Source: Actinomycetes bacterium (lineage in GTDB: Bacteria > Actinomycetota > Acidimicrobiia > Acidimicrobiales > Acidimicrobiaceae). From it: a stretch of 64,000 nt of DNA. The DNA is taken from NCBI GenBank assembly GCA_021803345.1, contig JAJZLS010000052.1, positions 40,713-104,712 on the forward strand, in the 5' to 3' direction. Both the position numbers and the translations under genes were made by a program. This document shows, piece after piece, positions 1,341 through 64,000 of this stretch. The notes below the pieces were generated by a model. The model searched no databases. It saw only the letters and a program-made list of their open reading frames with translations, and had not been told where the DNA came from. Numbering within the stretch: the stretch's first letter is position 1; each line of letters opens with the position of its first letter.

Positions 1341-1642
1341 CAGTACCGGGCAGTTGGTATCTGGTTTTAGCGGCGCTTCTCTTTTCACTGGGCGCGCTGG
1401 GGTTTTTCGTCAGAAAAAATATCTTGATCATGTTCATGAGCGTTGAACTGATGCTCAATGCAGTGAATCTTACTTTTGTCACTTTCTCAAGGATGCTTGG
1501 TGATATTGGTGGCCAAACGCTGGTCTTTTTTGTTTTGGTGGTTGCAGCAGCCGAAGTCGTGGTTGGTCTAGGAATAATAGTTGCCATATTTCGGCGGAAA
1601 AGTTCCACTACAGCTGACGATCTCTCGATATTTAGGGGTTGA
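1337..1642 (+). CDS. nuoK: NADH-quinone oxidoreductase subunit K
   Basis: Small MrpC-like membrane subunit of complex I, 101 residues with three transmembrane helices. The two membrane glutamates needed for proton pumping are present at E37 (in SVELMLNAVNL) and E73 (in AAAEVVVGLGI), matching E36 and E72 of E. coli. The start overlaps the nuoJ stop by ATGA. The nuoK stop (TGA 1640-1642) overlaps the TTG start of nuoL. Confidence 0.96.
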   Translation: MTVPGSWYLVLAALLFSLGALGFFVRKNILIMFMSVELMLNAVNLTFVTFSRMLGDIGGQTLVFFVLVVAAAEVVVGLGIIVAIFRRKSSTTADDLSIFRG

Positions 1643-3522
1643 GATTGAGTATCACACTGGTTTTTATACTGTTGGGTCTTCCGCTAGTTGGTGCAGTATT
1701 TAACATTGCTTTTGGCAAACGGTTAAAACGTCCTTATGCCGGGGTAATGGCTAGCCTTTTTGTGCTGGGTTCGTTTGTTTTGGCGGTGGTGACTTGGCTT
1801 CAGATGATGAAGCTCCCCTCATCACAAAGAGTTGCAAACTATACTCTCTTCAACTGGATATCAGTTGGGAGCCTTCACATAAATGTCGGGGCATATGTAG
1901 ACCCTCTCTCTGTGACAATGATTCTTTTTGTCACTGGCATAGCGATGCTGATTCATTTCTATTCCATCGGGTACATGAGCCATGATAAGCGATTCAGTAC
2001 GTTTTTCATTTATCTGAATCTGTTCGTATTCGCGATGCTGGTGCTGGTTCTTTCTAATAATTTTGTATTCACGTTCTTAGGTTGGGAAGGGGTCGGAGCC
2101 GCATCTTATTGGTTGATTGCGTTTTGGTTTGAGCGACCATCAGCCGCGGCGGCAGGTAAGAAAGCATTCATAATCAATAGAATCGGGGATTTCGGCTATC
2201 TCTCAGCGGTGTTTCTCATATTTAGCTATTTGGGATCGCTTAGTTACTCACATGTATTTGGTTCAGTTGGGCACCTCAGTACAGAGACCATTACTGCCAT
2301 TGCGCTCCTGTTCTTCGTCGGCGCTGTAGGTAAGTCAGCTCAGCTACCGCTGTTTGTTTGGCTGGTGGATGCCATGGAAGGTCCTACACCAGTATCGGCA
2401 CTTATCCATGCTGCCACTATGGTGACAGCGGGTGTCTATCTGATGGCAAGGATTTCCCCAATACTTCATCTTGCTCCAGGCGTGGGATTATTTATCGCTT
2501 ATGTGGGAGTGATAACGGCATTTATAGCAGCCATGGCAGCCACTTCCCAAAACGATATAAAAAAGGTGCTGGCTTACTCCACGGTGTCCCAACTGGGTTA
2601 CATGATGCTTGGAATTGGAACAGGCCAGTATATCGCCGCAATATTCCTGATGGTTACCCATGCTTTTTATAAAGCCCTTCTTTTCTTGGGAGCAGGTTCG
2701 GTAATCCACGGTTTGAACGATGAGCAAAATATCAAAAAGATGGGTGCGCTCAGAAAGCTGATGCCGATCACCTCATTTACTTTTATCATTGCCTGGCTTT
2801 CTATCGCAGGTCTGCCACCGTTTTCAGGATTTTGGTCCAAAGGGGATGTTTTAGCAGGTGCATATCAGAGTTCGGTGATTTTGTGGGCAATAGGAGCGCT
2901 TACTGCGGTCCTGACAGCCTATTACATGGGTCGAGAAGTTTACCTGGTGTTTTATGGGGGTCAAAGATTCGACTCTTCTACTCATGTGCACGAATCGCCT
3001 AAAATCATGACAGTTCCACTGGTAATTCTGGCAGTATTGGCTACATTCGGGGGGGCCCTTGATCTGCCGATTTCCAACAAGTACCGCTTTTTGGAAAACT
3101 GGCTTTCTCCTGTATTTGGGCATGCATTGACAGCTTCAACTATTTCAAGCAGTCTAAGGTTTACCCTGGGTGCCTTAGATGCAGTTTTTGCTCTGATAGG
3201 GATTGGATTGGCCACTTCATTGTGGCGGAAATCGGCTGAGAATCCTTCGGCTGAACCTGCTTTATTGAGAGCTGGATGGGGGATTGACCGATTTTATGAC
3301 CGGGCAATTGCCAGGCCATCAACCCAGCTATCTGCCACCTTTACCGATGTGATTGAGGTCAAGGTGATAGACGGAACTGTCATGTCGCTAGGGGGTCTGG
3401 TGATGGCGGTGGCCAAAATAGTCAGAAAGATCCAGACCGGATATATTCGCAATTACGCGCTTTATATAAGCGTGGGCGCCTTAGTAATCCTGGGTTATTT
3501 CGTTACTAGGGCTGGAGTCTGA
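1639..3522 (+). CDS. nuoL: NADH-quinone oxidoreductase subunit L
   Basis: Distal antiporter-like proton-pumping subunit of complex I, 627 residues, polytopic. The channel glutamate lies in GWEGVGAASYWLIAFW (E150). The conserved VGKSAQLPLFVWLVDAMEGP segment and the C-terminal extension expected for the lateral helix HL are present. The start is a TTG at 1639 overlapping the nuoK stop. No ATG is available near the expected N-terminus, and the spacing supports TTG. Confidence 0.96.
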   Translation: MRLSITLVFILLGLPLVGAVFNIAFGKRLKRPYAGVMASLFVLGSFVLAVVTWLQMMKLPSSQRVANYTLFNWISVGSLHINVGAYVDPLSVTMILFVTGIAMLIHFYSIGYMSHDKRFSTFFIYLNLFVFAMLVLVLSNNFVFTFLGWEGVGAASYWLIAFWFERPSAAAAGKKAFIINRIGDFGYLSAVFLIFSYLGSLSYSHVFGSVGHLSTETITAIALLFFVGAVGKSAQLPLFVWLVDAMEGPTPVSALIHAATMVTAGVYLMARISPILHLAPGVGLFIAYVGVITAFIAAMAATSQNDIKKVLAYSTVSQLGYMMLGIGTGQYIAAIFLMVTHAFYKALLFLGAGSVIHGLNDEQNIKKMGALRKLMPITSFTFIIAWLSIAGLPPFSGFWSKGDVLAGAYQSSVILWAIGALTAVLTAYYMGREVYLVFYGGQRFDSSTHVHESPKIMTVPLVILAVLATFGGALDLPISNKYRFLENWLSPVFGHALTASTISSSLRFTLGALDAVFALIGIGLATSLWRKSAENPSAEPALLRAGWGIDRFYDRAIARPSTQLSATFTDVIEVKVIDGTVMSLGGLVMAVAKIVRKIQTGYIRNYALYISVGALVILGYFVTRAGV

Positions 3523-5094: not shown

Positions 5095-6681
5095 ATGTCG
5101 TTTCTCATTGCTCAGGTTGCTTCTTCTACGCCTCTAAAACTGCCTTCGATTCAGTATTCTGCGATTGGTCCCGAGCTGATAATGATCTGCGGCGGTCTCA
5201 TCGTTCTATTAATCAGCTCTTTAGTGGCTAAGCATTTGTCAAAGGCCGTTTCGGTGACACTTGGGGTAATTGTTGGGCTGGCAAGCTTGGTCGATTCGAT
5301 CTACCTCGGGTTTCATTCGACTTCTGCCGGAGCAAATAAGGCTGTTTTGTCGGGAGCTATTGCAATAGATAAGTTCGCAATATTCTTTTATGCCTTATTT
5401 TCCATTGTTGCGGTAATGACGATTTTAGTTGGGCTTGACCAAATGAATTTGAACAGGGGAAGAACCCCTGAGTTCGTCACGCTGATACTTCTTTCAACCT
5501 CCGGTGCAATGTTGATGGCGGCTGCTGTGGACCTGATTGTTTTATTCCTTGGGCTTGAGATTCTTTCGATTGCACTTTATGTGCTTGTGGCAATAGAGTC
5601 AAACCAACCTTTAGGAAAAGAATCAGCCATAAAGTATTTCATGCTGGGTGGGTTTGCCTCAGCTATATTCCTCTATGGAATTGCTTTAGTTTATGGTGCC
5701 ACTGGATCAACTAACCTGGGCCAGATTGTCACGTTTCTGTCGAACAATCTGCTTAGGTCAAACGGGGTTCTGTTCGCTGGAATGGCGTTGATGTTGGTAG
5801 GACTGGGTTTCAAAATATCAGCGGCTCCGTTTCATTTCTGGACTCCGGACGTATATCAAGGTGCTCCAAGTCCGGTGACTGGGTATATGGCTGCTACAGC
5901 TAAAGCAGCCGGTTTTGCCGGTTTGTTAAGGGTTTTTTACTCCGGGTTCCTGAACTACCGTAGCGACTGGATTCCAGCGGTTGGGGCTTTAGCGGTGGTA
6001 ACACTCCTGGTTGGAGCCGTGCTGGCCGTGGTGCAAACAGACGTCAAGAGAACTTTGGCCTATTCATCTATAAACCAGGCTGGATTTATCCTTTTAGGTT
6101 TGTATGCGGCCACCAGTAAAGGTTTGGGAGCTTCACTTTACTACTTGGCGATCTATTCGGTAATTATCGTGGGTGCTTTTGCCACGATTGGGGCGATTCA
6201 GCGTGAGTTGGGTAAAGAACAGATTGTTATGAATGATTTGCGGGGGCTTTATCGCCGCTCTCCATTTCTTGCCTTTGCCTTTGCTGTTCTAATGTTTGCT
6301 CAGGCAGGAGCTCCCCTGACGACTGGTTTTCTAGCGAAATTTAACGTGGTTCTTTCAATCGTTGACTCTGGCCATTATCCGGTTGCCTTGGTTGCAATGA
6401 TTTCAGCGGCAATAGCCGTATTCTTCTATCTACGCTTGGCAATACTTGTATACAGGCCAGCCGGGGATGAAATATCTGATGCAACTTCCGACAGTGAATT
6501 GGTGGGGGCGATGATAGGAGGAGGGGGCTCCGCTTTGGCGGTTGATACCACCACCAAGACCTCAGCTAAGGTTTACGTTTCTACCTGGGTTATCGGATTT
6601 TCGCTAGTTGCTACAGTGGTATTAGGTATTGTAGCGAGCCCTCTGATAGACCTGGCCAACAGGGCACTTCCATTTTTCTAG
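5095..6681 (+). CDS. nuoN: NADH-quinone oxidoreductase subunit N
   Basis: Third antiporter-like membrane subunit of complex I, 528 residues. It carries the family segment SAAPFHFWTPDVYQGAPSPV and the channel glutamate in LFLGLEILSIALYVL. An in-frame ATG at 5038 would overlap nuoM by 53 nt. The ATG at 5095 has a purine-rich AAAGGGTTAGG upstream and gives a hydrophobic N-terminus, so I prefer it. This is the last gene of the nuo operon; a convergent gene begins 21 nt downstream. Confidence 0.93.
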   Translation: MSFLIAQVASSTPLKLPSIQYSAIGPELIMICGGLIVLLISSLVAKHLSKAVSVTLGVIVGLASLVDSIYLGFHSTSAGANKAVLSGAIAIDKFAIFFYALFSIVAVMTILVGLDQMNLNRGRTPEFVTLILLSTSGAMLMAAAVDLIVLFLGLEILSIALYVLVAIESNQPLGKESAIKYFMLGGFASAIFLYGIALVYGATGSTNLGQIVTFLSNNLLRSNGVLFAGMALMLVGLGFKISAAPFHFWTPDVYQGAPSPVTGYMAATAKAAGFAGLLRVFYSGFLNYRSDWIPAVGALAVVTLLVGAVLAVVQTDVKRTLAYSSINQAGFILLGLYAATSKGLGASLYYLAIYSVIIVGAFATIGAIQRELGKEQIVMNDLRGLYRRSPFLAFAFAVLMFAQAGAPLTTGFLAKFNVVLSIVDSGHYPVALVAMISAAIAVFFYLRLAILVYRPAGDEISDATSDSELVGAMIGGGGSALAVDTTTKTSAKVYVSTWVIGFSLVATVVLGIVASPLIDLANRALPFF

Positions 6682-6702: not shown

Positions 6703-9700
6703 TTAGTCCGAAGCGTTACTAGGTACAAGGAACCTGCCAATAATCGGTAGCTCCCAAAATGCTTCTGCCCGGGCTATTGCTACAGCGATAGCGGGGGCAT
6801 GCTCGATATTGTCATAAACAACATAGCGAGGACGCCAAGTTGGATTAAATTTGGAGTTGAATCTCCATAAGCTTTCAATTTGCATGGAGCCGCTCATCCG
6901 CATTAGCAGCCACTTCTCAACTCTTTGCGGCAGTGAATCCATCTCCCCTGAAAGTACAGCTCTCATGGTTGCAAAATTCAGGCTGAGATGGGAATACCCC
7001 AAATCTCTGAGATATTCAATTGTTGCTACGATCATGAAATCTGTAAGTCCGTTGGGATGCTGTCCCAGGTCTCTCCTCATCAGATCGAGCGAATAACCAT
7101 TTATTCCAGTTGCAGGCACCCACTGGCAAAATCCGACTACTTTGCCAGTGGCGTCCTTGCACACGGTGAGAAGCAGACCTTCGTCGTGGGGATCCAGTAT
7201 GCGCCCAAGCGTCATCGAGAATCCCCGTTCCGCGTCGCCTCTTCTGCTTTGGCCCATTATGCTTCGGATCTGAAACGCTAAGTCTTCATCAATAGTGCTG
7301 GGATCGTAAAAATGAGCTGAATATCCGTACTTCCTAATTCTTCCAGCAGCTTGACGTAATCCTTTATTTTTCTTTCCCTCAAGATGGAATTCGTTCAATG
7401 CAACGATCGCTTCGTCACCTACATAGATTGCGTGCATTGAGGTTTTCCGGTAGATATTCAGCCAATCCTGATCTGCACCCAGTACTGCCACAACCCAGCC
7501 TTTTGAATTTGCAAAAGATAGAAATTCCTGCCATGCCTGCGTCCGTGTTGTCACCGGGCCAACTGGGTCTGGGGAGACTAAAGCCACCGCTCCGTAATTG
7601 GCATAAGCCACGACGCTGCCATGGGCGAAGAAATACTTCTTGTCGTCTCGTAAGGCAAAGTAATCCAGAGTGCCGGTTGAATGGTTTCTGATGATATTAC
7701 GGGCCTTTTCTCTATCGGTTTTGGAGCCGAATCGAACCACTAGGCCTTTTGAGCGATCGACCACTGGCCGAAAAATCAAAAAGAGCGAGATCGCTGCAAG
7801 TGCTATCCCGCTCAACTCTAATGCGGGAGTTGCAAACCTGTTGATATAGTTGGGCAGCGGCATAGTTGTATAGCCAGCAAGTCTTTCGGTCACAGCTATC
7901 AATGAATTGGTAAAGGTTATGGTGAAGTGCCTGCTAAACAAGGAAATGAAGCCGTAAATGATCGCTGTACTGAATATGACGACTGTAAATATCCCGGTTA
8001 CCAGAGTTCTTATCCCCCTGGCCAGTGAAGGTTTATCCATCGGTGCAGTAAAGCTTTTTCGAATTGCCAGCAAATAAAGGGTTAGTACAACCAGGGTGAG
8101 TGCTTCTTCGAAGTCTCCCCCTTTGACAATATTCAGCGTGGCTGCACCCAGAGAAATGATAAGAGTGAGCATCCATGCTGTCCTCTGTCCCCGGCGAACT
8201 CCTCCGGCCAAAAAAATGAGTGCGATAGAACCGATGGCCACTAGGGCATCAGCGGTTTTTGAAACTGAGATTGGAATAAATTTCTCAATCAGGTGCAAGC
8301 GTGATCTTATTGGTGGGGTAAGAGCGGATGCAAGGTTGAGCGCTCCAACCAAAAAAATGGCAAGCGAAGCTCGTCTTCTGTGCATTCGCTGCTTTAGAAC
8401 TGGAGATTTCTGTTCCAGGTAGTCATTTCCGTCCGGATAGGAAGCGATTTGACCCCTGTTTTGGCTTTTTACCTCGGCCCTCGAGATTAATATCTTTTCG
8501 ATTAGTGACCCAGGTTTTTGATATTGGCTGTGATCCATGAGCCTTACATGGATATTTGCACCCGCCTCAATTTCAATCCATGTCGCCTGTAATTTAGGTC
8601 TAAAAACCGATGGGAGTCCGAATATCGATGAGTTTTCGCTATAGATGAGTGACACTGATCCAGCACAGGAATAGAAACCGTTTCCAAGCTTGGAAAGTTC
8701 CGGTGTCATAAAATGGCCAACTATTACTCCTCGGTATCCTTGTTCGATTAATTTTGCCGCGCCAAGCCGACTGGCACGATTAAGATCAGGATTTGCCGTG
8801 TAACCCGATTCGAGAGTGACGAAGTGGGAATATGAGTGTCTAATAATCATCAGCACTGCTATCAGCATCAATACTGCATCCGCCAGAGTTGTGATCGTTA
8901 TCAGGCGCAGCAGCCCTCCAATTGCAAACGTGTGGTGTTTTATATGACTGACGATTGGGAGGGACAGAACCAAAGGTATCCGGATTAATAAGGTTATGAG
9001 AAGCGGAATCAGGGCCCAAGGTAGATATTTTTTAATAGCTTTTCGGTAGGTAAGTCTGGATAACAGGAATCGAGCGGAGGCGCTTGGATCTCTGAGCCTT
9101 TCCACCCCCTTGAGCCAATCTTTACTTTTCGAGGACCTGTATCTGGGCCAGAAATCTTTTAGGAGGTGGGCTGCCCAAGGCGATTCATTTGGGGAATAGA
9201 GGTCTGCAGCTGCTGCTAAAGGGTCAAATTCTCTTCCGGAACTTATCTGCACTTTGTCAAAACCGCTGATATTGGCAATCCTGAGTTCCAGCCTGAGTCC
9301 AAGTTCAAACGGAAAAGCCTCGCGCAAAGAATGGATTAGAAGACGGTCGTAAGCAAGCTGGGAATCTCTAAAGCCTGGAATTAAAAAGATTCGTACTTCT
9401 GCCCGGCGTGTAAGCGAGCGGAATGCACCGAAAAGTGGAGATTCAAACTTAGGAGCAGGTGAAGTTATGCTTTCGTCGGTTGGGCCAGCAGACAACAGGT
9501 CGAGCAAATTCCCAGCTACGACTATAACGCCTGGGCCATCCCACTGCTCTAGGGCCTCAATAAATGGCCCCAACTCTAGGGTCGAAGCTGAACGGTCGTA
9601 AGGTTTTATTAGAAAATCAGAGACTACAACAACTTTTTCACCTATACCAATTTCGATGGTTCTAATTGGCGGGCATTCCAGAGAGCTTGGGACTACGTCC

Positions 9701-55065: not shown

Positions 55066-55138
55066 GCGCTCGTAGCTCAACGGATAGAGCATCTGACTTC
55101 GGATCAGAGGGTTGGGGGTTCGAGTCCCTCCGAGCGCG
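55066..55138 (+). tRNA. tRNA-Arg (TCG), integration hotspot
   Basis: 73-nt cloverleaf. Acceptor GCGCTCG pairs with CGAGCGC, the anticodon stem TCTGA/TCAGA encloses loop CTTCGGA (anticodon TCG, reads CGA), the T-arm is GGGGGTTCGAGTCCCTC, and the discriminator is G. Five copies of its 3' portion, starting at the anticodon loop, recur downstream at the ends of toxin-antitoxin cassettes. This marks it as the attachment site of an integrative element family. Confidence 0.96.
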
Positions 55139-55349
55139 CTACATAAGTGCAGGTCACAGATATTAGCAATCTCGGGCTATTGTACGTGGTAAGATAAACC
55201 CAACAATTAACGGCTCTTCGGATATTTACGGTGTCAGCCAGCCCTAGGTGAAACTTTTAGGTAACCACGATTGAGTCAAGAACTCTTCAATTGGGTATTC
55301 CGGCATACGACAGCGCTATGATTCTATAGTTCCGGTAATTGGTATACGC

Positions 55350-55793
55350 ATGAGAACTCTGCATTTAAGTAACGCTCCGGCCTCAATCTCAGAATCTCGG
55401 GTTGCCCGTTCGAACCTTGCCGGGCTTCTAGCGTGGATGGCGATCCTCGGTTTCGGCGTTGGCAGCTTTTCTGCCGCGATGCCCGCAGTTATCCTGGCTG
55501 TTACGCCAAAAAGTGAGACATCTAGCGCCATGAGTGTTAACCAGGTAGTGCGCAGTGTTGGGTTATCTTTTGGAAGCGCTGTTGGGGGTCTAGTGCTAGC
55601 TGCAGGTACGGCCACCGCCCATCTCTTTCCGACCGATGGTGCCCGCACAGTAGCCGCATTAATCGACAGCGCGGCAATGGTGGTCACAGCGATGACGAGC
55701 ATCGTTCTCTCCTACCAACATGGACCCTTGATGGAAGCGACGGCGAGTACGACTATTATGCAATCTGAGGAACAGGGCGAATCGAGCCAATGA
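55350..55793 (+). pseudogene. Truncated MFS transporter (C-terminal part)
   Basis: 147 residues resembling only the last third of a 14-helix DHA2-type drug transporter: GFGVGSFSAAMPAVILAVTP and SAMSVNQVVRSVGLSFGSAV match the penultimate helices. Full proteins are about 450-500 residues. Upstream sequence to the tRNA is only 210 nt and does not supply the missing part. Probably a remnant carried or truncated by integration. Confidence 0.65.
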
Positions 55794-55918
55794 CTGTCGC
55801 CCTCAGCCAAATCGTGCCCATCGTGGTCCAACCTTCAAGATCCAAAGCGCCAATAACTACACACTTACGTGTGGCAGTCTTCGGAAGAACTCGTGGCATG
55901 TTTGATAGGAATAGTCAG

Positions 55919-56101
55919 CTACGGATAAGAAGTTTTCGAGAGTCTTGAGATTGTAAGGAAAAGGTACACCTCTGCACTTTTGTCGCCATGTGCCAAAAGT
56001 GCATTTAGTTTTTCGCTCATATCTTCTCTTAAGTTATGTGACCTAATAACAAGGAGTTTCCTTTCCCCTACAGGGATCACCTTTTCTACCTCGGTGATCA
56101 A
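55919..56101 (-). pseudogene. Small ORF, possible gene remnant
   Basis: 60 codons from a TTG (56101). The same frame stays open further upstream to a stop at about 56211 without any ATG or GTG. The peptide is compositionally protein-like (EKVIPVGERKLLVIRSHNL, then LNALLAHGDKSAEVYLFLTI) but unrecognised. It may be the decayed C-terminus of an older cargo gene; it overlaps the hicBA promoter region. Confidence 0.3.
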
Positions 56102-56169
56102 GGTATTTCTGCTTAACTCTTCTTCGGATATTGTCCAGGGCCTGATTACAAAATGGCGGGTTTTGGTTG

Positions 56170-56213
56170 GATATCTGGAACAGTTTACATTCTGGTATTC
56201 TGATATCTATGAT
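56170..56213 (+). promoter_or_regulatory. Probable hicBA promoter and operator
   Basis: TTTACA (56184-56189), an 18-nt spacer and TATGAT (56208-56213) form a plausible promoter. Direct repeats GATATCT at 56170-56176 and 56202-56208, 32 bp apart, bracket it and could be operator half-sites for the HicB antitoxin. Confidence 0.45.
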
Positions 56214-56266
56214 GACGTTTTGGTGTCTCAGCATTTGTTTTTACTGGGCGTGATGAGTCAGGAGCC

Positions 56267-56476
56267 ATGATGCAGTTAACTGCCGTACTGATGCGTGCAG
56301 ACGAGGGTGGATTTGTTGCACTTAACCCTGAGACTGGTACTACAACTCAGGGGGACACGCTTGACGAAGCCATCCAGAATCTCCAAGAAGCGACCGGTTT
56401 GTATCTCGAAGAGTTCGGTCTGACTCCTCACGATGCACCGCTGGTTACGACCTTCACTGTTCCAGCAAGTGCCTAA
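56267..56476 (+). CDS. hicB: HicB-family antitoxin
   Basis: 69-residue short HicB. It contains ADEGGFVALNPETGTTTQGDTLDEAI..NLQEA, the degenerate RNase H-like fold of the antitoxin. No extra DNA-binding domain is visible. AGGAG at 56260-56264 may serve this ATG or the adjacent ATG at 56270. It precedes and overlaps hicA, the less common antitoxin-first order. Confidence 0.85.
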   Translation: MMQLTAVLMRADEGGFVALNPETGTTTQGDTLDEAIQNLQEATGLYLEEFGLTPHDAPLVTTFTVPASA

Positions 56477-56687
56477 ACTACCGAAAGTTTCTGGAACTCA
56501 AGCGATTAGAGCTTTAGAAAGTCTTGGATTTGTTGTTGTAAGACAACGTGGAAGTCATGTGGTGATGCGAAAGGGTTCGACCGGATGCGTGATACCAAAC
56601 CACAAAGAGATCAAGAGCGGCACTTTGGCGGGCGTACTTCGTCAGGCCGGAGTGCCGCTAGAAGAATTCCTTCGAGCGCTTCATTGA
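56469..56687 (+). CDS. hicA: HicA-family mRNA interferase toxin
   Basis: 72 residues from GTG 56469, overlapping hicB by 8 nt. A reading from ATG 56433 would add 12 residues. The double-stranded-RNA-binding-like fold and catalytic histidine are seen in LGFVVVRQRGSHVVMRKG (H30). It cleaves mRNA in family members. Intact in length. Confidence 0.87.
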   Translation: MPKLPKVSGTQAIRALESLGFVVVRQRGSHVVMRKGSTGCVIPNHKEIKSGTLAGVLRQAGVPLEEFLRALH

Positions 56688-56780
56688 TGAACTAATGACA
56701 CTGGACGTTGTTTGACAAGTATCTGGTTGGTTTCATGGGTGGCGGTAATGACTGATCAGTTATGAATTTGCTCTACTCAA

Positions 56781-56990
56781 AACCCAACAAAAACCCAACA
56801 AAAACCCAACAAAAACCCAACAATGGCATTTCACGGCGTACCATTTGATTACATATTGCTGCAGCTACCCAAAACAAAGAACGAATAGAGCAGCCTATAT
56901 GCAATAATCTGATGCTAAGAGATGTCATTTGAAACGAGTTCTATCTATCTTGGGATCAGAGGGTGGGGGTTCGAGTCTTTCCGGGCGAGT
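56781..56990 (+). repeat. Cassette-end repeat R1 (iterons + core + degenerate tRNA-Arg fragment)
   Basis: Four AACCCAACA iterons at exact 11-bp spacing (56781, 56792, 56803, 56814), a core AACGAATAGAGCAGCCTATA starting at 56880, and a tRNA-Arg 3' fragment at 56949-56990 with several changes, including loss of a base in GGGTTGGGGG. The iteron-to-fragment distance (56803 to 56949) is 146 bp, as in the other copies. The fragment is the most diverged of the five. Confidence 0.85.
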
Positions 56991-57243
56991 TATATAAGTG
57001 CGGTTCATAGGCCATATTAGAACTTTTTGGTATCTCGGTAAATCTGTTTTGGTAGGTAGTTGGTATACGGTTTGAAAAATTTTTCGATGGTAGTCAGATC
57101 AGCGCTTGGGAGTTCTTTGGGGAACGTCGCCAGCTTGGACTGAGCTATGGATGGGCACTTACAGGTAATTTTTTGACAGCTACCGACCAGACGTGTAGGA
57201 CGAGGTAAACACGTCGAGATTCAAACGCAGATGTGCCTACACA

Positions 57244-57265
57244 TGTAATACACATAAGCATTACA
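57244..57265 (+). promoter_or_regulatory. Operator-like inverted repeat upstream of relB-like gene
   Basis: TGTAAT (57244-57249) and ATTACA (57260-57265) are exact inverted repeats with a 10-bp spacer, ten bases before the antitoxin ATG. A further ATTACA occurs at 57287-57292. Typical placement for autoregulation by an RHH antitoxin. Confidence 0.5.
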
Positions 57266-57274
57266 ATAGATTAT

Positions 57275-57553
57275 ATGTCTAAGAACATTACAATGAATAT
57301 CAGACTCGATGAAGATACTCGCCGAGAACTAAGGGACTTCGCTGCTGAAATTGGGATACCGGCAACGACGCTGGTAAACGCCAGTATCAAGCAGATGTTA
57401 CGCACTCGCGAAGTTACATTTAGAGCCGCGCTGGAACCCACTGCTAGCCTAGAAGAAGCTATTAGAGAAGCAGAGCTTGACTACAAAACCAAAAGTAATA
57501 TCACTATCACTGAAACTGACGAAGAGACGCTGGCGCATCTCCGTTCACTATGA
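57275..57553 (+). CDS. RelB/DinJ-family antitoxin
   Basis: 92 residues from ATG 57275. An upstream in-frame ATG at 57233 would run through the operator. N-terminal RHH: ITMNIRLDEDTRRELRDFAA and IPATTLVNASIKQMLR. The acidic C-terminus would wrap the toxin. The stop overlaps the toxin ATG by 4 nt. Confidence 0.85.
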   Translation: MSKNITMNIRLDEDTRRELRDFAAEIGIPATTLVNASIKQMLRTREVTFRAALEPTASLEEAIREAELDYKTKSNITITETDEETLAHLRSL

Positions 57554-57810
57554 GAATCATATTTCATAAGAAGTTCGACAAACAGTATGCGAAATTACCT
57601 GAAGCACAGAAAAAGCGGTTCGAGAATGCGATAGTCCTTTTTAGGAGCGATCCTTACCACCACGATTTATACAATCACCCACTTGGTGGCCAATGGAAGG
57701 ATCATCGCTCAATTAGTTTTGGGGGCGATTGGAGAGCGCACTACATAATCATAAATAAAGACGAGGTATTATTTGTGGCCATTGGCACCCATAGTCAACT
57801 ATACAAGTAG
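57550..57810 (+). CDS. RelE/YafQ-family mRNA interferase toxin
   Basis: 86 residues of the YafQ-like RelE superfamily. It starts MRIIFHKKFDKQYAKLP, includes DHRSISFGGDWRAHYII and ends LFVAIGTHSQLYK with the conserved C-terminal histidine. Predicted ribosome-dependent mRNA cleavage. ATGA overlap with the antitoxin. Confidence 0.87.
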   Translation: MRIIFHKKFDKQYAKLPEAQKKRFENAIVLFRSDPYHHDLYNHPLGGQWKDHRSISFGGDWRAHYIIINKDEVLFVAIGTHSQLYK

Positions 57811-58110
57811 TGCCAATCCGCGGGGAGAATGTCAAAAGGGATAAATACTATCTACTGCCGGGTCCATTGGAAGCCAGGGGACATTTGAAATACCTTGGAA
57901 TAATTTCGGGGATAATGACGGGAGTTGCTCGTCCTAGCTTACACAAGTCCAGTATAGTTTGAGATCTCTGGGCTGATTTGTGTTCTCCTGGTACACCGTC
58001 GCCCGTTACCGCAGTATCTTCGTCATATAAGGTACCCTTGAATTAGGCGGTCCCAGAATATCTTAGAGAAGCAGCAATTAGGTAAGACGTCGGGAAAGAA
58101 GGTCCCGCAG
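57811..58110. other. Intergenic stretch in cassette C2
   Basis: 300 nt without a convincing gene, RNA or strong hairpin. It separates the toxin from the exported-protein gene and could hold the latter's promoter. Confidence 0.3.
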
Positions 58111-58926
58111 ATGAAATTGGAGATCTCCTCCTTCAGAAGCTGGCGGCTATCACGGTCGATTGGTCTGATCTTGATGGGTCTTATTATGGGGGGGAGCATA
58201 GTTAGATCTGAACAAAATTCGGCAGTAGGCCACTGGCTCACTGTACTTCCTGAATTTCCTGGAGCCGAGAAGACGAGTATGCCAGATCCTGGTGCGTCGG
58301 AAATGTTGCCTCGGTCGCCTTCTCTCCGGACTGCCTCGGCGGAATATATAGTTCCAGTAAATACCACTCAGTCCGAAAAGTGGTACCAGAACGAATTTTC
58401 GCGTATTCATTGGAACAGCTCAGGTCTAGGAACTTCTTATTCAAATGGCGTTGCAATTCAGTCGGAAGAAGAGTTCGCAACGCCCTCGCATCCGCTCATA
58501 ACAATTCAGCTAAGTTTCAAGGCATTATCGGAAAATAAGACATTGGTACATGTATTGGTAACCGATTTAGAAATTCCAAGGTCTGCAGCTACTCTGCTTT
58601 CGACTGAATTCAATCGTGCAAAAGTAACAATTTATTCGACAGCAGATAACAACAAGCGAACACTTCGGTCCTATGTCGTTAGTAATTCCTCCGTGGTACA
58701 CGATTGGATCTCAGTTTTTAATTCTTTGCCAATCGCACCCAAGCCTGGAGCGATGACCTGCGCACAGACAGCGCTATCTGCCAAGATTTTATTTTCCGCA
58801 ATCGGCACTTCTCATCAATCACAGGTCACGCTCAATCCGGGCTGCGGAATTGCCGACTTGAATCGTTCAATTATTTTATTGGATATAAAGGGAAAATTTT
58901 GGCAAAGTGTTGATGGTTATTCATGA
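58111..58926 (+). CDS. Hypothetical membrane-anchored extracytoplasmic protein
   Basis: 271 residues. A basic N-terminus (KLEISSFRSWRLSR) precedes one hydrophobic helix (about 16-33), consistent with a signal anchor or signal peptide. A mid region around 75-160 has QSEKWYQNEFSRIHWNSSG and alternating strand-like segments. No family assigned. It is the only apparent non-TA intact cargo in the cassette array. A Shine-Dalgarno sequence is weak. Confidence 0.55.
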   Translation: MKLEISSFRSWRLSRSIGLILMGLIMGGSIVRSEQNSAVGHWLTVLPEFPGAEKTSMPDPGASEMLPRSPSLRTASAEYIVPVNTTQSEKWYQNEFSRIHWNSSGLGTSYSNGVAIQSEEEFATPSHPLITIQLSFKALSENKTLVHVLVTDLEIPRSAATLLSTEFNRAKVTIYSTADNNKRTLRSYVVSNSSVVHDWISVFNSLPIAPKPGAMTCAQTALSAKILFSAIGTSHQSQVTLNPGCGIADLNRSIILLDIKGKFWQSVDGYS

Positions 58927-59163
58927 AGTTAAGTGCTAGTTGTTCGAGATTGACGTGCGAAGGACTGTGTTGTATTCAAAAGGAATAAGGCGTTGCTTGA
59001 AGTTGAGCAGAAATGTCACGCATGGTCTATGAAACTTGTCGATCAGATGTGTTTTTTGAAGTGCAAGGTTACGAGCAATGAGTCGATAATACCTGACGAG
59101 ACAGTCGTATCCACGGACAAATTCAATTGCGAATTCTACAAATTTTCAAATCGATTTGTTGAA
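58927..59163. other. Non-coding tail of cassette C2
   Basis: A 60-codon open frame (58993-59175) runs into the iterons and has no family resemblance, so I do not call it a gene. No other structure is visible before R2. Confidence 0.3.
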
Positions 59164-59353
59164 AACCCAACATAAACCCAACAAAGTCGTTTCAATTAGA
59201 ATCCAATTGTTGCCAATGGTTGCAGTCTCCGTCTAGAAAAAACGAATAGAGCAGCCTATATGCAATAATCTGATGCTAAGAGATGCCATTTGAAACGAGG
59301 TCTATCCATCTTCGGATCAGAGGGTTGGGGGTTCGAGTCCCTCCGAGCGCGCT
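59164..59353 (+). repeat. Cassette-end repeat R2
   Basis: Iterons AACCCAACA at 59164 and 59175, core AACGAATAGAGCAGCCTATA from 59241, and a tRNA-Arg fragment at 59310-59353 identical over 44 nt to 55097-55140. Distances iteron-fragment 146 bp and core-fragment 69 bp. Confidence 0.88.
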
Positions 59354-59543
59354 ATAGGTGCACTCATAATTATAGGGAATAGGCTTGCTTTTCCACTGGC
59401 TGAGCTGCCAATCTGGATTGTATAACGAATCTTATGATGTATCTCGTAAATTAACAGACGGTTGCTCAATTGCTCTCGGTGTAATTTGGTTTTCTATTTT
59501 TGGATGTTTTGCTTGGAGCGAATGGGTGCTATTCTTTACAAGT

Positions 59544-59786
59544 ATGGAGAAAGTAAAGAATCAGGGTCGGAGCACGAAAATTAGTGTGAAGCACCAGGTA
59601 ACCATTCCGATTGATGCGATGCGCATTGCGGGTCTGGAAGCCGGTGAGCGAGTGATGGCGCGGGCTGAAGGCCCAGGACGGGTGGTACTTGAACGCCAAG
59701 ACGACGTTCTGGAGCGGTTCTCTGGATCCCTGACGGGAGTATTCGATCAGAGAATTCTTGATCAACTGCGCAATGAATGGGACTGA
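59544..59786 (+). CDS. AbrB/SpoVT-type antitoxin (VapB-like)
   Basis: 80 residues from ATG 59544; the in-frame TTG upstream at 59385 would add 53 non-conserved residues. Swapped-hairpin DNA-binding motif: TKISVKHQVTIPIDAMRIAG and LEAGERVMARAEGPGRVVLE. The C-terminal part should bind the PIN toxin. Overlaps it by 10 nt. Confidence 0.85.
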   Translation: MEKVKNQGRSTKISVKHQVTIPIDAMRIAGLEAGERVMARAEGPGRVVLERQDDVLERFSGSLTGVFDQRILDQLRNEWD

Positions 59787-60193
59787 CTCTAGTCGACGCT
59801 GGCATTCTAATTGCCTTTCTTGATGAGGACGATGCGCATCATAGTGGGGCAAAGCGAGAACTCGTAAGTGCACAACAACGTGGCGACCGAATCGCCCTGC
59901 CAGCATCGGCCTTTGCTGAGTCGCTCGTGTCTCCGGCGCGTAGGGGTGAATCTTCAGTCGCGGCCATATGTGAATTTATTGAACGGTTACCATTATTGAT
60001 TGTGGAACTTGATTCAGAGATTGCCGTTGAGGCAGCGAAACTTCGGGCTCGTCATGGCCAAAAACTTAAGCTTCCCGATGCCCTAGTCGTGGCGACCGCT
60101 ATTCAAAGAGGGGCTGATGTACTCGTTACCACTGACCGAGGCTGGCCCACAAAGAGCAAATTGGGTTATCGGGGAAACCTCATCATACTTTGA
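59777..60193 (+). CDS. vapC: PIN-domain ribonuclease toxin (VapC)
   Basis: 138 residues. The acidic metal-binding set is complete: D7 (LTLVDAGILIAFL), E48 (SAFAESLVSP), D101 (LKLPDALVVATA) and D120 (LVTTDRGW). Predicted Mg-dependent endoribonuclease, probably acting on tRNA or rRNA as in known VapCs. Overlaps the antitoxin by 10 nt. Confidence 0.9.
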   Translation: MGLTLVDAGILIAFLDEDDAHHSGAKRELVSAQQRGDRIALPASAFAESLVSPARRGESSVAAICEFIERLPLLIVELDSEIAVEAAKLRARHGQKLKLPDALVVATAIQRGADVLVTTDRGWPTKSKLGYRGNLIIL

Positions 60194-60420
60194 ACCTTCT
60201 CGTATTACGTTGCTCTTGACCGTGTGCTACGCTGTCAGAACCAAATGTGGTCGGTGATAGTTCAACTCCTTGGTTGAGCCACTTTAACTCGGTATTCCAT
60301 GATTGCGCATTCTGTCAATTTCGCCGACTCGGCTTCATCTGCCGGTAGAAAGTAGTGAGTGAAATAGTGGTTGGGTGAAAGTAAGCTAGCGGGTTTTTAC
60401 CAAAATAACGCCCCAAAGCA
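60194..60420. other. Non-coding tail of cassette C3
   Basis: 227 nt between vapC and R3 with no recognisable gene or RNA. Confidence 0.3.
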
Positions 60421-60608
60421 GACCCAACAAAAACCCAACATTTTCGGATCATCTGGCGCCGAATGGTCGCACCTTGTTACAGCCTCCTTGCGCAAACAAC
60501 GATTAGACCAGCCTATATGGAATAATTTGACGCCACAAGGCGCCATTTGAAACGAATTTATCTGACTTCGGATCAGAGGGTTGGGGGTTCGAGTCCCTCC
60601 GAGCGCGC
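60421..60608 (+). repeat. Cassette-end repeat R3
   Basis: Iterons GACCCAACA (60421) and AACCCAACA (60432), core AACGATTAGACCAGCCTATA from 60498, and a tRNA fragment 60560-60608 identical over 49 nt to 55091-55139. It alone also keeps the 5' anticodon stem ATCTGA. Iteron-fragment distance 145 bp. Confidence 0.88.
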
Positions 60609-60716
60609 GGTATAAGTATTCTATTAACCATTCAAGTTGTTGAATAATAATGGGTGAGAGAATTAGCGACCCGATAAAAGCTGAAGAGCCATATTTCAGT
60701 GGTTTGTTTGATCTTT

Positions 60717-61067
60717 TTATAGGTCCAGAATAAATCGAAGTGCCTGACTGATTTTGTGAACTTCATCTTGAGCAGCTTCGCCCAGCCGAATGGACAGGCG
60801 GCGTGTTGATATTGTACGAATTTGGTCACAACGGGCGTATGAAACATGATCGAGACCCGAAGTTCCAGGCTCCAACTCAACATGACTCCGCAGGCCGTAG
60901 AACTTAGACGATATGGGAACCACCGCGACAAGTTCTCCTGGTCCGTTATTGATAATGTCCACAGAAACGACAACCGCTGGTCGCGTTAATCCTGGCTCGT
61001 GACCTATAGGTTGCCCCAAATTGACATCGTAAATAGCTCCACTCCAAATCAAGCCAGTGAGTCCCAT
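60717..61067 (-). CDS. mazF: MazF/PemK-family endoribonuclease toxin
   Basis: 116 residues. It starts LTGLIWSGAIYDVNLGQPIG, with GHEPGLTRPAVVVSVDIIN containing the catalytic arginine region, VAVVPISS and HVELEPGTSGLDHVSYARCD, all typical of MazF. Sequence-specific mRNA cleavage is expected. Overlaps the upstream antitoxin by 19 nt. Confidence 0.88.
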   Translation of the reverse strand: MGLTGLIWSGAIYDVNLGQPIGHEPGLTRPAVVVSVDIINNGPGELVAVVPISSKFYGLRSHVELEPGTSGLDHVSYARCDQIRTISTRRLSIRLGEAAQDEVHKISQALRFILDL

Positions 61068-61285
61068 TCATCACGATCCGCCCAGTACTCCTTCCAGAGA
61101 TCTGGATCCTCGCGTAAGCGTCGGTAATCGTTATTCAAACCGCTTAGGAACTCTTGACGTTCCAAAGCTTCTATTGCTGTGTGAACAATCTCAACAACAG
61201 TAGTTTGCCTACTCTTTGCTAAGGATTGTAGTCGTTCAGAGTCGGGGCGCCGAACCCGAACTGTTGTGGTATCTGATGATGTCAT
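61049..61285 (-). CDS. Ribbon-helix-helix antitoxin (MazE-like)
   Basis: 78 residues. N-terminal RHH: TTTVRVRRPDSERLQSLAKS and TTVVEIVHTAIEALERQ. The acidic/aromatic C-terminus (LWKEYWADRDEWDSLA) is the expected MazF-binding tail. Direct repeats lie just upstream. Confidence 0.85.
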   Translation of the reverse strand: MTSSDTTTVRVRRPDSERLQSLAKSRQTTVVEIVHTAIEALERQEFLSGLNNDYRRLREDPDLWKEYWADRDEWDSLA

Positions 61286-61292
61286 GATCCTA

Positions 61293-61311
61293 TTGTAGAT
61301 GATTTGTAGAT
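61293..61311 (-). promoter_or_regulatory. Direct-repeat operator of the mazEF-like pair
   Basis: TTGTAGAT occurs at 61293-61300 and 61304-61311 (plus-strand reading), 11 bp apart, eight bases upstream of the antitoxin start. The one-turn spacing suits cooperative RHH dimers. Confidence 0.45.
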
Positions 61312-61471
61312 TGATTGTGATGGTAGACGGATATTGATATTGGAGATTTTCAAATTCGCCAATGTAGCTTCTATCTTGTCGTCTTGCTTAGTTTTATTCC
61401 TCAACATTTGCTTTGTCGTTCCAGACTGGCTATTTCTATACACAATTCCACGGGGTATTTACCACTTTGAA

Positions 61472-61661
61472 ATCCCAACAGAAACCCAACAAAGTCGTTT
61501 CAAGTAGAACCCAATTGTTGCACGTGGTTGCAGTCTTAGTGTAGAAAAAACGAATAGAGCAGCCTATATGCAATAACGTGACGTCATAAGGCACCACTTG
61601 AAACGAGTTCTATCTATCTTCGGATCAGAGGGTTGGGGGTTCGAGTCCCTTCGAGCGCGCT
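61472..61661 (+). repeat. Cassette-end repeat R4
   Basis: Iterons ATCCCAACA (61472) and AACCCAACA (61483), core AACGAATAGAGCAGCCTATA from 61549, and a tRNA fragment 61618-61661 with one substitution (CCCTTCGAG for CCCTCCGAG) over 44 nt. Iteron-fragment distance 146 bp. Confidence 0.88.
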
Positions 61662-61724
61662 GCTACATGAGTGGTGGCTCTTCGGATATTCGCGGTCGTC
61701 TAGCGGCTTTTTTAGGTGTGACAT

Positions 61725-62000
61725 CTAGTCCCTGTAGGCGTCGCTTCTGTGGCGGATCGCGGTGACTTTAACTGCACGAGAGGTCTCATCGATAAGATAC
61801 AACACGCGGTATTCACCTCGGTGAGCCGACCAAGTCGGAGCAAGTGGTGGCTGAAGTTGCTTACCGACCCTTTGCGGATTGTCCAGCAATGGACCAGTGA
61901 TGAAGGAATATGCCGCGGCTGCGATTTTTGGAGGCAGTGCTTCAGCTAGTGCGCGAGCGGCTGGACCGGCAATTTGAAGGCTATAGCTGCTTTCATTCAT
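61725..62000 (-). CDS. relE: RelE/ParE-superfamily toxin
   Basis: 91 residues of the actinobacterial RelE type. It contains LEALPP-like LAEALPPKIAAAAYSFITGP, then GEYRVLYLIDETSRAVKVTA and the C-terminal IRHRSDAYRD, where catalytic His/Arg/Tyr residues lie. Begins immediately after the antitoxin stop. Confidence 0.87.
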   Translation of the reverse strand: MNESSYSLQIAGPAARALAEALPPKIAAAAYSFITGPLLDNPQRVGKQLQPPLAPTWSAHRGEYRVLYLIDETSRAVKVTAIRHRSDAYRD

Positions 62001-62273
62001 TTAGTCTGCATAATGCATAAGGCGGGCGAGTTCTTTAGCGTCTACATAGTCACCTTCTGCTATAGCAGCTAGACCCTTTACGTGTTCGACTAAGAGTTCC
62101 GAGTCAGACAAAACAGCTATAGTCTCGCGTAGAGAGTCGTAGTCGTCAACGCCTAGAAGCACAGCAGCACGTATACCGTTGCGTGTGATTTCAAACCGTT
62201 CATGAGTAGATGCAGCTTCGTCAATCAATTTTGAAAAGTGAGCTCGAGCATCGGCGACCGGAAGAGTTGTCAT
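62001..62273 (-). CDS. Phd/YefM-family antitoxin
   Basis: 90 residues from ATG 62273; ATG 62279 would add two. It starts TTLPVADARAHFSKLIDEAA and continues TRNGIRAAVLLGVDDYDSL, canonical Phd/YefM. A TATAAT (complement of 62281-62286) lies so close that the mRNA may be leaderless. Confidence 0.87.
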   Translation of the reverse strand: MTTLPVADARAHFSKLIDEAASTHERFEITRNGIRAAVLLGVDDYDSLRETIAVLSDSELLVEHVKGLAAIAEGDYVDAKELARLMHYAD

Positions 62274-62280
62274 GTACATA

Positions 62281-62286
62281 ATTATA
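62281..62286 (-). promoter_or_regulatory. -10 box of the phd-relE pair
   Basis: TATAAT on the minus strand, about eight bases before ATG 62273; a CTGAAA about 17 nt further upstream could be the -35. Predicts a leaderless antitoxin mRNA. Confidence 0.5.
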
Positions 62287-62583
62287 GCGTATTGTATTCG
62301 AACTTTCAGCTTCCGAGCGGTTCGATTTATCAATGTCCGCGAACACTATGTATATCGAGGTGTCTTAAAGTGGTTTGCCAGGTCTAATACTTAGCGAGGC
62401 AATTGTGTCGGCCTATAAAAGCCACTAGGAGTGTGGGATTCTGCAAGAGGGCGCCGTGGTTTTGATTGACAGTCATTTCTATGGGCTATTGCCGTTTTAG
62501 GACTCCCACTTCCCCTGGAATTGCTCGGGCCACCACTCAAGAAGTAAACTGTTGTCTGAAATAGATAACTACGTGTCTAGGCA
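62287..62583. other. Non-coding tail of cassette C5
   Basis: About 300 nt between the phd promoter and R5. No gene, RNA or strong hairpin recognised. Confidence 0.3.
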
Positions 62584-62770
62584 AACCCAACATAAACCCA
62601 ACAAAGCCGTTTCAGTTAATACCGAATTGTTGCACGGTGTTGCAACTCACGTGCAGAAATAACGATTAGACCAGCCTGTATGCAATAATCTGATGACGCA
62701 AGGCACTATTTGAAACGAGATATTTCTATTTCGGATCAGAGGGTTGGGGGTTCGAGCCCCTCCGAGTGAG
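62584..62770 (+). repeat. Cassette-end repeat R5
   Basis: Iterons AACCCAACA at 62584 and 62595, core AACGATTAGACCAGCCTGTA from 62661, and a tRNA fragment from 62730 with a T-to-C change in the T-arm and a diverged end (CCGAGTGAG). Iteron-fragment distance 145 bp. Confidence 0.86.
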
Positions 62771-62872
62771 CAAATCATAAAATCATATTTTGAATAATGA
62801 AGATCTGGCTCTTCGAAAGATTTGTGTTTCCACTGGCGGAGCTAGTCAAGAGCTTCTGCTGAGACGATTAAG

Positions 62873-63199
62873 TTAGGACGCTTTTCCTTGGGAAAGGTGT
62901 CGTTGAAGTTGATTGACGTCCTTGACCAAGGAATCCAATATGGCATCGACATCCGATCCGTGCTTTTCATTAGTAAGTCCTTGCAATACCCAATCGCGTA
63001 CCAGTGCCGATGGTGGAATATCGGCAGCATTCGCGACATGCTGTATTTCATTGATTTGTTCGGGAGTAAGCCGAACGGAGTAGATCACTGACTTGGTCCT
63101 GCTTTTACGCACGGCCTTATCTGATACGGGGACATCGTGTGCCAACTCAGATGCCTCTGTCTCTTGGTTTATAAGTTGTTCAAGGTTTTTATTATTCAT
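62873..63199 (-). CDS. Ribbon-helix-helix protein, probable antitoxin
   Basis: 108 residues from ATG 63199, which has GGAGGAGAG just upstream. RHH region: VIYSVRLTPEQINEIQHVAN and IPPSALVRDWVLQGL. Long, charged N-terminal and C-terminal arms. It follows and slightly overlaps the toxin frame (toxin-first order). Probably DNA-binding repressor and antitoxin. Confidence 0.7.
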   Translation of the reverse strand: MNNKNLEQLINQETEASELAHDVPVSDKAVRKSRTKSVIYSVRLTPEQINEIQHVANAADIPPSALVRDWVLQGLTNEKHGSDVDAILDSLVKDVNQLQRHLSQGKAS

Positions 63200-63501
63200 G
63201 ATCTCTCCTCCAATAACGGCGGGCCTGAGTTTCGTTTGCCTTCCATGCATTTACTCCAATCTTCTCGTCTCGTAAGTAAATTACGACAATTACGATACGT
63301 GCAGTCTTCGAGTAACCGATAAGTCGATCGGTTCCCGCCATATTTGGAAGCAGGGTCAGGCCACTCGATTAGAGCGTCGTCATCGGGAAACGCCTCGTTT
63401 GCCCAGTCAGGTTCGATATCTTTATCACTAGGACGTCTAAACGATCGACTTCGTATGTACTCTGCCCGATATTTCCAGTCTAAGACATCTGTATCTCTCA
63501 C
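63192..63501 (-). pseudogene. Frameshifted toxin-like gene
   Basis: GTG start at 63501. The first about 60 codons encode AEYIRSRSFRRPSDKDIEPD and WPDPASKYGGNRS, matching the start of a small actinobacterial toxin-like family paired with RHH genes. The rest of that family appears in another frame: LIGYSKTARIVIVVIYLRDE then VNAWKANETQARRYWRRD, stopping at 63192. A one-base insertion (or two-base loss) near 63324-63330 explains the break. Family recognition is from memory and unnamed. Confidence 0.65.
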
Positions 63502-63537
63502 CTATCTAGTGTAGCACGAACGTATTACACTAGATAG
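63502..63537 (-). promoter_or_regulatory. Perfect 12-bp palindromic operator
   Basis: CTATCTAGTGTA (63502-63513) and TACACTAGATAG (63526-63537) are exact inverted repeats around a 12-bp spacer, abutting the GTG of the toxin gene. Most likely the autoregulatory operator of the C6 module. Confidence 0.65.
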
Positions 63538-64000
63538 AGAATTCGGAATTTTCTGTTGGCCTCCTATTCGAAGTACCGAAGGAAAGAAAAATCGAGGCAC
63601 CTCAAAGAACTGCAGAGCCAAGTTGGGGTATCAGTTACCCAAGGTGCATCAGAAATGCCGTGGGAGTAATTTAGCATTTCTATCCCCTGAGGCTGAATTA
63701 GAGTTCGCTCAAATTATCTCGATGGTTCCTGTGTCAAATGGATATACATATGGGTCAGTCAACACAACATCGACTCCGTTGCCGCTCGCAAAATCCACGC
63801 CTATATAGCGGTGCTGTGTCGGTGCGACATTTCGCAGCGAACCAGTGTTACCATTCACCACCCCTGATCTATCCATGAATGCAACTGACCGGTTACCGAG
63901 TCAGTAATGACGATAAAACATGCTCTGACATGGTGATTCGCGAAGTGGTTTCAAATGTGCTGAACTGTTTGTTATGGAACACATCCAAAAGCGGTCTCAA
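63538..64000. other. Unassigned end of window
   Basis: 463 nt. A 61-codon plus-strand frame (63623-63808) has no family resemblance and no Shine-Dalgarno. No iterons or tRNA fragment are present. Confidence 0.3.

Follow-up and report, generated by a model that had tools for sequence, protein, structure and literature searches.

Cis-mobilizable elements (CIMEs) are units bounded by attachment (att) sites that have no genes for integration or transfer, are stacked at the 3' end of a single gene and are assumed to move in cis with an element that arrives there (PMC7563491, PMC5704250). In S. salivarius, composites of two or three elements have been found besides classical CIMEs, which span 1.2-13 kb and differ in their cargo, and microCIMEs that contain no genes (PMC7563491), while tRNA-Arg genes of Streptomyces harbor stacks of one to three actinomycete integrative and conjugative elements (AICEs) or defective AICEs (DAICEs), for which cis-mobilization has been proposed and a remnant lacking traB has been described (PMC9513070). 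Likewise, many tandem islands, 15 of them without an integration module, occupy a single RNA gene, ssrA, in Dehalococcoides (PMC3146451). Here we analyze a stretch of 64,000 nucleotides from a bacterium of the family Acidimicrobiaceae (the window; positions 40713-104712 of contig C35 of genome G000, the window's own genome, its end being the contig end), in which a tRNA-Arg(TCG) gene is followed by an array of six small units, C1 to C6, that carry toxin-antitoxin (TA) genes. We consider it probable, at roughly two chances in three, that AICE-derived CIMEs are stacked here at tRNA-Arg(TCG), every one of them reduced to a core, one addiction module and a right arm.

Chromosomal integrons are also arrays of small cassettes, in which TA cassettes stabilise the array. 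The array described here is similar to them in combining small cassettes with TA genes, but it has no integrase at its head, its sites are tRNA-derived and accompanied by a long right arm, and the matching recombinase is encoded in an AICE. The superintegron of V. cholerae is mentioned in PMC12548467. Like the CIMEs of S. salivarius, the units of the array form a stack at the 3' end of a single gene, and in line with the definition of CIMEs they have no integration or transfer genes of their own, with cores and right arms as what is kept of the att sites; however, the array comprises six units, the complete ones of 1.05-2.4 kb, with one TA locus each, the left arm has been lost and the units occur across genera. 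Stacking at tRNA-Arg is common to the array and to the accretions of AICEs and DAICEs in Streptomyces (PMC9513070), whereas the DAICEs keep traB and the array units, most of them of about 1 kb, have no recognisable int, rep or tra gene. The Dehalococcoides islands differ in their serine recombinases and metabolic cargo (rdhA), and an asymmetry of arms is not described in the accessible part of PMC3146451.

Organization of the array and the related AICE

The tRNA-Arg(TCG) gene, the integration site (attB), is located at 55066..55139 on the plus strand (ARAGORN and Rfam). A repeat search places five direct copies of its 3' half behind it, all of them with a conserved arm of about 150 bp on their upstream side. 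The repeated core begins in the anticodon loop (55097) and reaches the 3' end of the gene, and its copies match the tRNA from the anticodon loop or close to it. The five copies of arm plus core bound six units, five of them complete, with core-to-core spacings of 1,852, 2,361, 1,256, 1,052 and 1,112 bp. An earlier note on this stretch, which had described an intact tRNA-Arg(TCG), five direct copies of its 3' part and six cassettes with a shared end module, is thus borne out. An arm profile built from the five array copies and two on contig C32 of the same genome scored the array copies at E 1e-55 to 3e-62, values that are no independent test.

Contig C32 carries these two further arm copies as well as a left arm, which comes first on the contig and is followed by genes for a tyrosine recombinase of 385 amino acids (Int, 99-1256), an HTH_17 protein (1292-1507, Xis-like), RepSA (E 6e-127) and an FtsK-type protein. 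The right arm (7925-8074) is followed by a core equal to the 3' half of tRNA-Arg(TCT) and then by a HicBA unit that has an arm as well. The offset of the left arm suggests that the contig starts just past a core; the left core and the tRNA itself lie off the contig. With a tyrosine Int beside one att site, a Rep protein (RepSA) and an FtsK-type Tra protein, the element is a pSAM2-type AICE, and it carries the end module of the cassettes, its arm being 90% identical to the right arm of C4. The statement of the earlier note that no recombinase is encoded therefore holds for the array, as no PF00589 match was found on contig C35, and does not hold for the genome, where a tyrosine recombinase was found in an element with the same module, a check that the note had proposed. 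In genome G041, both ends of an integrase-bearing element lie on one contig (C165), in the order tRNA-Arg(TCT), Int, AAA ATPase, a Gp49/HTH pair (HigBA-like) that adjoins the right end, arm and core; this element is plausibly an intermediate, integrase-bearing and with a TA locus beside the arm. In a third element (G015, contig C7) int is split in two and the arm is weak.

Relatives of Int were detected at E<=1e-20 in 33 of the 43 genomes of the family. A tRNA gene (Arg, Val, Lys, Met or Thr) lies directly upstream of int in 18 of 19 scanned loci of such relatives (46-70% identity), and the remaining locus is cut off by a contig end. A sequence model of the arm had matches in six of 397 genomes of the order, five of them in the family (the own genome included) and a weak one outside, a count that is a lower bound owing to strict filters. 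Searches of the array against phages gave no near match, the top-ranked phage matches of Int were about 24% identical, and the arm query had one plasmid match, restricted to the tRNA core.

Distribution of left and right arms

The octamer motif ACCCAACA occurs 12 times on the plus strand of the window, always in the array, and three times on the minus strand, once in the array. As a pair (ACCCAACA-N(2-4)-ACCCAACA) it is present eight times on one strand of the own genome, six times in the array and twice on contig C32, and the reversed control pattern was absent from the 43 genomes. All 19 integrase-bearing left ends (18 tRNA-linked loci and contig C32; some of the int genes contain stops) have at least one exact copy, 36-71 bp past the core and just before int: 15 possess an exact pair with 12-bp spacing, three a pair with one mismatch in the second copy and one a single copy. 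In contrast, among 16 integrase-less left ends, which include the same cassette from several genomes and represent about eight or nine independent types, the motif was found in the first 200 bp of one, the truncated left end of C1 with its single copy. Among 17 right ends, some of which belong to integrase-bearing elements, 15 show one copy or more, the exceptions being an intron-split arm in G034 and the diverged arm of G015. The integrase-less units keep cores and right arms, while the left arm is missing in 15 of 16.

The spacing within the pairs follows the same division. Altogether 68 pairs were counted in the 43 genomes, six of them contributed by the probably cross-binned contig C34 of G039; 47 had a spacing of 12 bp and 21 a spacing of 11 bp. 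Pairs of the former kind lie upstream of a listed int in 27 of the 47 cases, whereas none of the 11-bp pairs does, all 21 being located in arms. Conversely, an exact pair was present at most 400 bp upstream in 26 of 37 closer Int matches. The left end of C1 (55189..55211, +, with one complete ACCCAACA at 55198-55205) and an AICE on contig C214 of G039 have the same 23 bases, beginning 49 bp from the tRNA end and running to the middle of the pair, after which they diverge. Because these bases are shared at the same distance from the tRNA end, C1 has the appearance of a broken AICE. A cassette that keeps the right arm could be carried by an AICE landing upstream of it, but would be one arm short for moving alone.

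Occurrence of the units in other genomes

When the array was searched against the 43 family genomes, with additional local comparisons, C2 (left part), C3, C4, C5 and C6 were found to recur behind tRNA-Arg genes of other species and genera, either singly or as a C5-C6 block. In G034, which belongs to the same genus, the tRNA is followed by C5 (96.6% identical) and then by C6, while glmS, which precedes the tRNA by 1.2 kb on the C5-bearing contig, has a DNA identity of 70% to the window. Synonymous divergence (dS) between the window and G034 was 0.01 for Phd, 0.06 for ParE and 0.10 for the ribbon-helix-helix protein of C6, and was saturated for glmS. The arm between C5 and C6 of G034 is split by a group II intron inside the ACCCAACA pair; contig C141 stops with the 5' end of the intron and contig C201 starts with its domain V (RF00029), so that the two contigs are probably adjacent. 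The intron ends were located at 8293-8368 of stretch L133 and 5225-5266 of stretch L134, and a transposase lies beyond C6 on contig C201.

In a second genus (g5), G023 has the tRNA, C6 and its arm at 93.5% identity, with the contig stopping just after, and G022 has the tRNA and the left 0.85 kb of C2 at 85%. The 5-kb flank upstream of the tRNA is 70-78% identical among G022, G023 and a third genome, G025, and has no alignable match to that of the window, which argues against binning errors; in G025 neither C2 nor C6 was found in the array search. C4 with its arm follows the tRNA in G041 (83%) and is there alone, which shows that units also become detached from one another. In another genus (g3), the tRNA of G011 is followed by a short unit, a degenerate core and C3 at 91%, and G004 has a relative of C4 (74%) at tRNA-Arg(TCT), while G028 carries an arm unit without recognised genes at tRNA-Gln. 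Such a pattern of divergence requires that units were transferred between species and genera. The nested series of C6 in G023, C5-C6 in G034 and C1-C6 in the window fits a stacking in which the newest unit is next to the tRNA. These results support the earlier view of the units as non-autonomous, integrative and mobile. In the genomes searched, neither of the two outcomes that the note had named as refuting was seen: cassettes vary in presence and absence, and where the module lies away from this tRNA it is located at other tRNA genes (Arg-TCT, Gln).

An assembly artefact is argued against by the presence of modules and cassettes in several genomes, in g5 with the flank of that genus. Contig C34 of G039, 99.97% identical to the array of the window, was not counted as a relative, as the tRNA-Arg locus of G039 itself lies on contig C214 beside a glmS of 69% identity and C34 is thus probably cross-binned. 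The distal flank of the array was not found, a marker gene being present in two of the 43 genomes at E<=1e-40. Contig C164 of G041 and contig C10 of G038 form an occupied/empty pair, with 99.5% identity over 4,009 bp of flank and a break inside tRNA-Arg(TCG); no arm of the cassette family was found in the inserted element, which belongs to a different family and was not used for the cassettes.

Unit content and toxin-antitoxin genes

C1 (55140..56948, +) comprises the AICE left-end remnant, a fragment of a major facilitator superfamily (MFS) gene, a HicB/HicA pair (56267..56687, +; HicB-like antitoxin 56267-56476, HicA toxin 56433-56687) and the right arm (56801..56948, +); the adjoining core copy 1 (56949..56990, +) is the most degenerate of the five. 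C2 (56991..59309, +) contains RelB-like/YafQ genes (57233-57810), an open reading frame of 271 amino acids without clear family (58111-58926) and the right arm (59160-59309), and is followed by core copy 2 (59310..59352, +). C3 (59353..60565, +) carries AbrB/MazE-like (59547-59786) and PIN/VapC (59777-60193) genes and its right arm at 60418-60565, before core copy 3 (60566..60608, +). In C4 (60609..61617) MazF/PemK (60717-61067) and its partner (61049-61285) are on the minus strand and the right arm (61468-61617) on the plus strand, and C5 (61661..62728) has the same arrangement with ParE (61725-62000, -), Phd (62001-62333, -) and the right arm (62580-62728, +); core copies 4 and 5 lie at 61618..61660 and 62729..62771 (both +). 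C6 (62772..64000), cut by the contig end, holds genes for a ribbon-helix-helix protein (62873-63250, -) and a broken toxin-like protein (63196-63501, -); its distal end is outside the contig and its arm is visible only in G023.

The earlier note had assigned a different TA type to each cassette. For the five complete units this stands, as each has a toxin confirmed by Pfam (HicA, YafQ/ParE, PIN (VapC), PemK (MazF) and ParE next to Phd), whereas the toxin-like gene of C6 is broken in the window and most antitoxins are weak or below the Pfam cut-off, Phd being the exception. The HicB-like protein of C1 passes DUF7387 only, RelB of C2 and AbrB/MazE of C3 are under the cut-off, the MazF partner of C4 has no Pfam match, and the ribbon-helix-helix protein of C6 has a NikA-like match just under the cut-off. 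The broken toxin-like gene of C6 corresponds in G034 to an uninterrupted frame of 102 amino acids with a weak BrnT match (E 0.049). Not covered by the assignment of one TA pair per cassette are the additional reading frame of C2 and the MFS fragment of C1. The TA genes evolve mostly under constraint, since the ratio of nonsynonymous to synonymous substitution rates (dN/dS) was 0.07-0.25 in 11 of 12 comparisons, several of which involve the same gene against two genomes and are not all independent; the twelfth (Phd against G034) rests on four differences. A second kind of addiction module, a type II restriction-modification (RM) pair, precedes an arm in G039 and G035. The RM unit on contig C3 of G035 (906-3520 of stretch L145) also matches the candidate defence families PDC-M63A/B and PDC-S19. 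Another RelB/YafQ pair of the own genome (3862-4521 of contig C23:92000-101000) is 91% identical to that of C2 and has no arm or core beside it.

Several sequences within or next to the units were observed in addition. About 120 bp at the left of C1 (55211-55332) are present as tandem copies on contig C235 of G035 (7608-7847 of stretch L229), adjoining a tRNA-SeC gene, and start with GGCTCTTC, which is reminiscent of ISL3-type ends. The end of the C3 arm together with its core (60540-60607) nearly scores as a tRNA (27.3 bits against a gathering threshold of 29). Three other contigs of the own genome (C30, C11 and C56) hold copies, 95-97% identical, of the last ~157 bp of the window (63844-64000), which may be the end of an insertion sequence that interrupted C6 and made the assembly stop there.

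Discussion

Starting from the observed anatomy, the shared arm and the asymmetry of the arms, we propose that the tyrosine integrase of the C32 AICE family would recombine in the tRNA anticodon loop, acting on two arms. The left one would be the ACCCAACA pair with 12-bp spacing that directly precedes int, the right one the pair with 11-bp spacing within the module of ~190 bp. An AICE landing at the tRNA would push the resident units distally and could subsequently excise by itself or take along as many of the units downstream of it as lie up to a given core, the left arm of such a composite being supplied by the tRNA-proximal AICE and the right arm by the last unit taken. After transfer the AICE would leave or decay while the cassettes stay, so that pick-up would need only a right arm and retention an addiction module. 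The action of Int on these arms, mobilization in cis rather than in trans and addiction as the reason for retention are thus likely features of the model, as is AICE descent for the units other than C1. By deletion, such descent is visible for C1 with its AICE left end, and not traceable for C2-C6.

The integron likeness put forward in the earlier note, according to which each unit would be excised and integrated alone and in trans by an Int encoded elsewhere, appears unlikely. It could account for C6 in G023, C2 in G022 and C4 in G041, each directly behind tRNA-Arg with the boundaries seen in the window, as well as for the arm unit without recognised genes at tRNA-Gln in G028, and a source of recombinase would be at hand in the many family genomes with related Ints. 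However, one-by-one movement is at odds with the left-arm repeat, missing from nearly all integrase-less left ends and retained in every integrase-bearing one, which points instead to position-dependent cis-mobilization with an AICE. In addition, the order C5-C6 is common to the own genome and, given the adjacency of the two contigs, to G034, as block transfer predicts.

Still less likely is the uptake of foreign DNA that would then recombine by homology at the tRNA and at the arm repeats, with the integrase no longer involved. The repeats do offer homology on both sides, and arms have been swapped between cassettes, as seen from the similarity of the C4 arm to that of the C32 AICE and of the C2 arm to the C6 arm of G023 (89%). 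Yet, as the upstream flank in g5 cannot be aligned with that of the window, only the ~75-bp tRNA and a single arm would provide homology, and the boundaries are located at the anticodon-loop core. That successive AICEs landed, decayed independently and left behind TA genes that cannot be lost, with nothing moving now, would agree with the broken AICE left end in C1, the degenerate core copy 1 and C6 toxin-like gene and the lack of an AICE at this tRNA in the window, but is very improbable, because other species and genera contain integrase-less units with matching left ends (C2-C6) whose identity of 83-97% greatly exceeds the host background, and C2-C6 would accordingly have moved after losing int. 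This last explanation is largely refuted for C2-C6 and might still apply to the stack of the own genome as it is now.

Several observations weigh against a stack of AICE-derived CIMEs. Pairs with the spacing of the left arm have no listed int nearby in 20 of 47 cases, and 11 of the 37 closer Int matches lack an exact pair upstream. We also considered the pair as a general integrase arm and rejected this, given that none of 80 IMG/VR loci (80 of at least 120 stretches) had an int-like gene within 500 bp; judged by these loci, the pair is no general mark of integrases. Intact integrase-bearing elements with both ends visible number just two, the C32 AICE, with its left core off the contig, and the element on contig C165 of G041. 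Within the window no AICE lies between the tRNA and the array, and tblastn found no remnants of Int, Xis, Rep or FtsK in the array (best E 0.57), so that AICE descent is directly visible only in C1. The arm of C4, 90% identical to that of the C32 AICE and 71-72% identical to the C4 arms of G039 and G041 compared with 83-84% for the rest of C4, shows that arms have also been exchanged by ordinary recombination. In a few integrase-less units neither a TA nor an RM locus was recognised, namely the first unit of G011, the unit of G028 and the first unit on contig C48 of G023, which contains an int remnant. Finally, we infer composite excision from the sequences, no excised circle or recombination having been observed.

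Accretion of AICEs and CIMEs at tRNA-Arg is already known. New are the array of six units, each with an arm and one TA locus (the arm of C6 being the one seen in G023), the left/right asymmetry of the arms and the exchange of closely similar units between genera; TA-only arrays of this sort were not found described in the open-access literature. We tentatively suggest that such units might be mobile DNA of a class of their own, hitchhiker cassettes about 1 kb long that have one arm, the right one, and an addiction (TA or RM) module. They would persist and spread across genera through their position alone, being taken along each time an AICE inserts on their tRNA side, and the array would be comparable to an integron without an integrase of its own.

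A survey of AICEs from 2011 reported none in Acidimicrobidae, also after a wider search (PMC3218068). Among matches that bear a species name, the one nearest to the window is Acidithrix ferrooxidans (60% over glmS), class Acidimicrobiia, closer matches being metagenome-assembled genomes with names at class or phylum level, and the C32 element thus extends AICEs to Acidimicrobiia, a class assignment that is probable. The array represents a testable design for the spread of genes without mobility genes of their own, in which one arm and an addiction module await a helper. Moreover, the arm asymmetry makes the question of cis versus trans mobilization of CIMEs directly testable, and the array site offers natural presence/absence alleles across genera.

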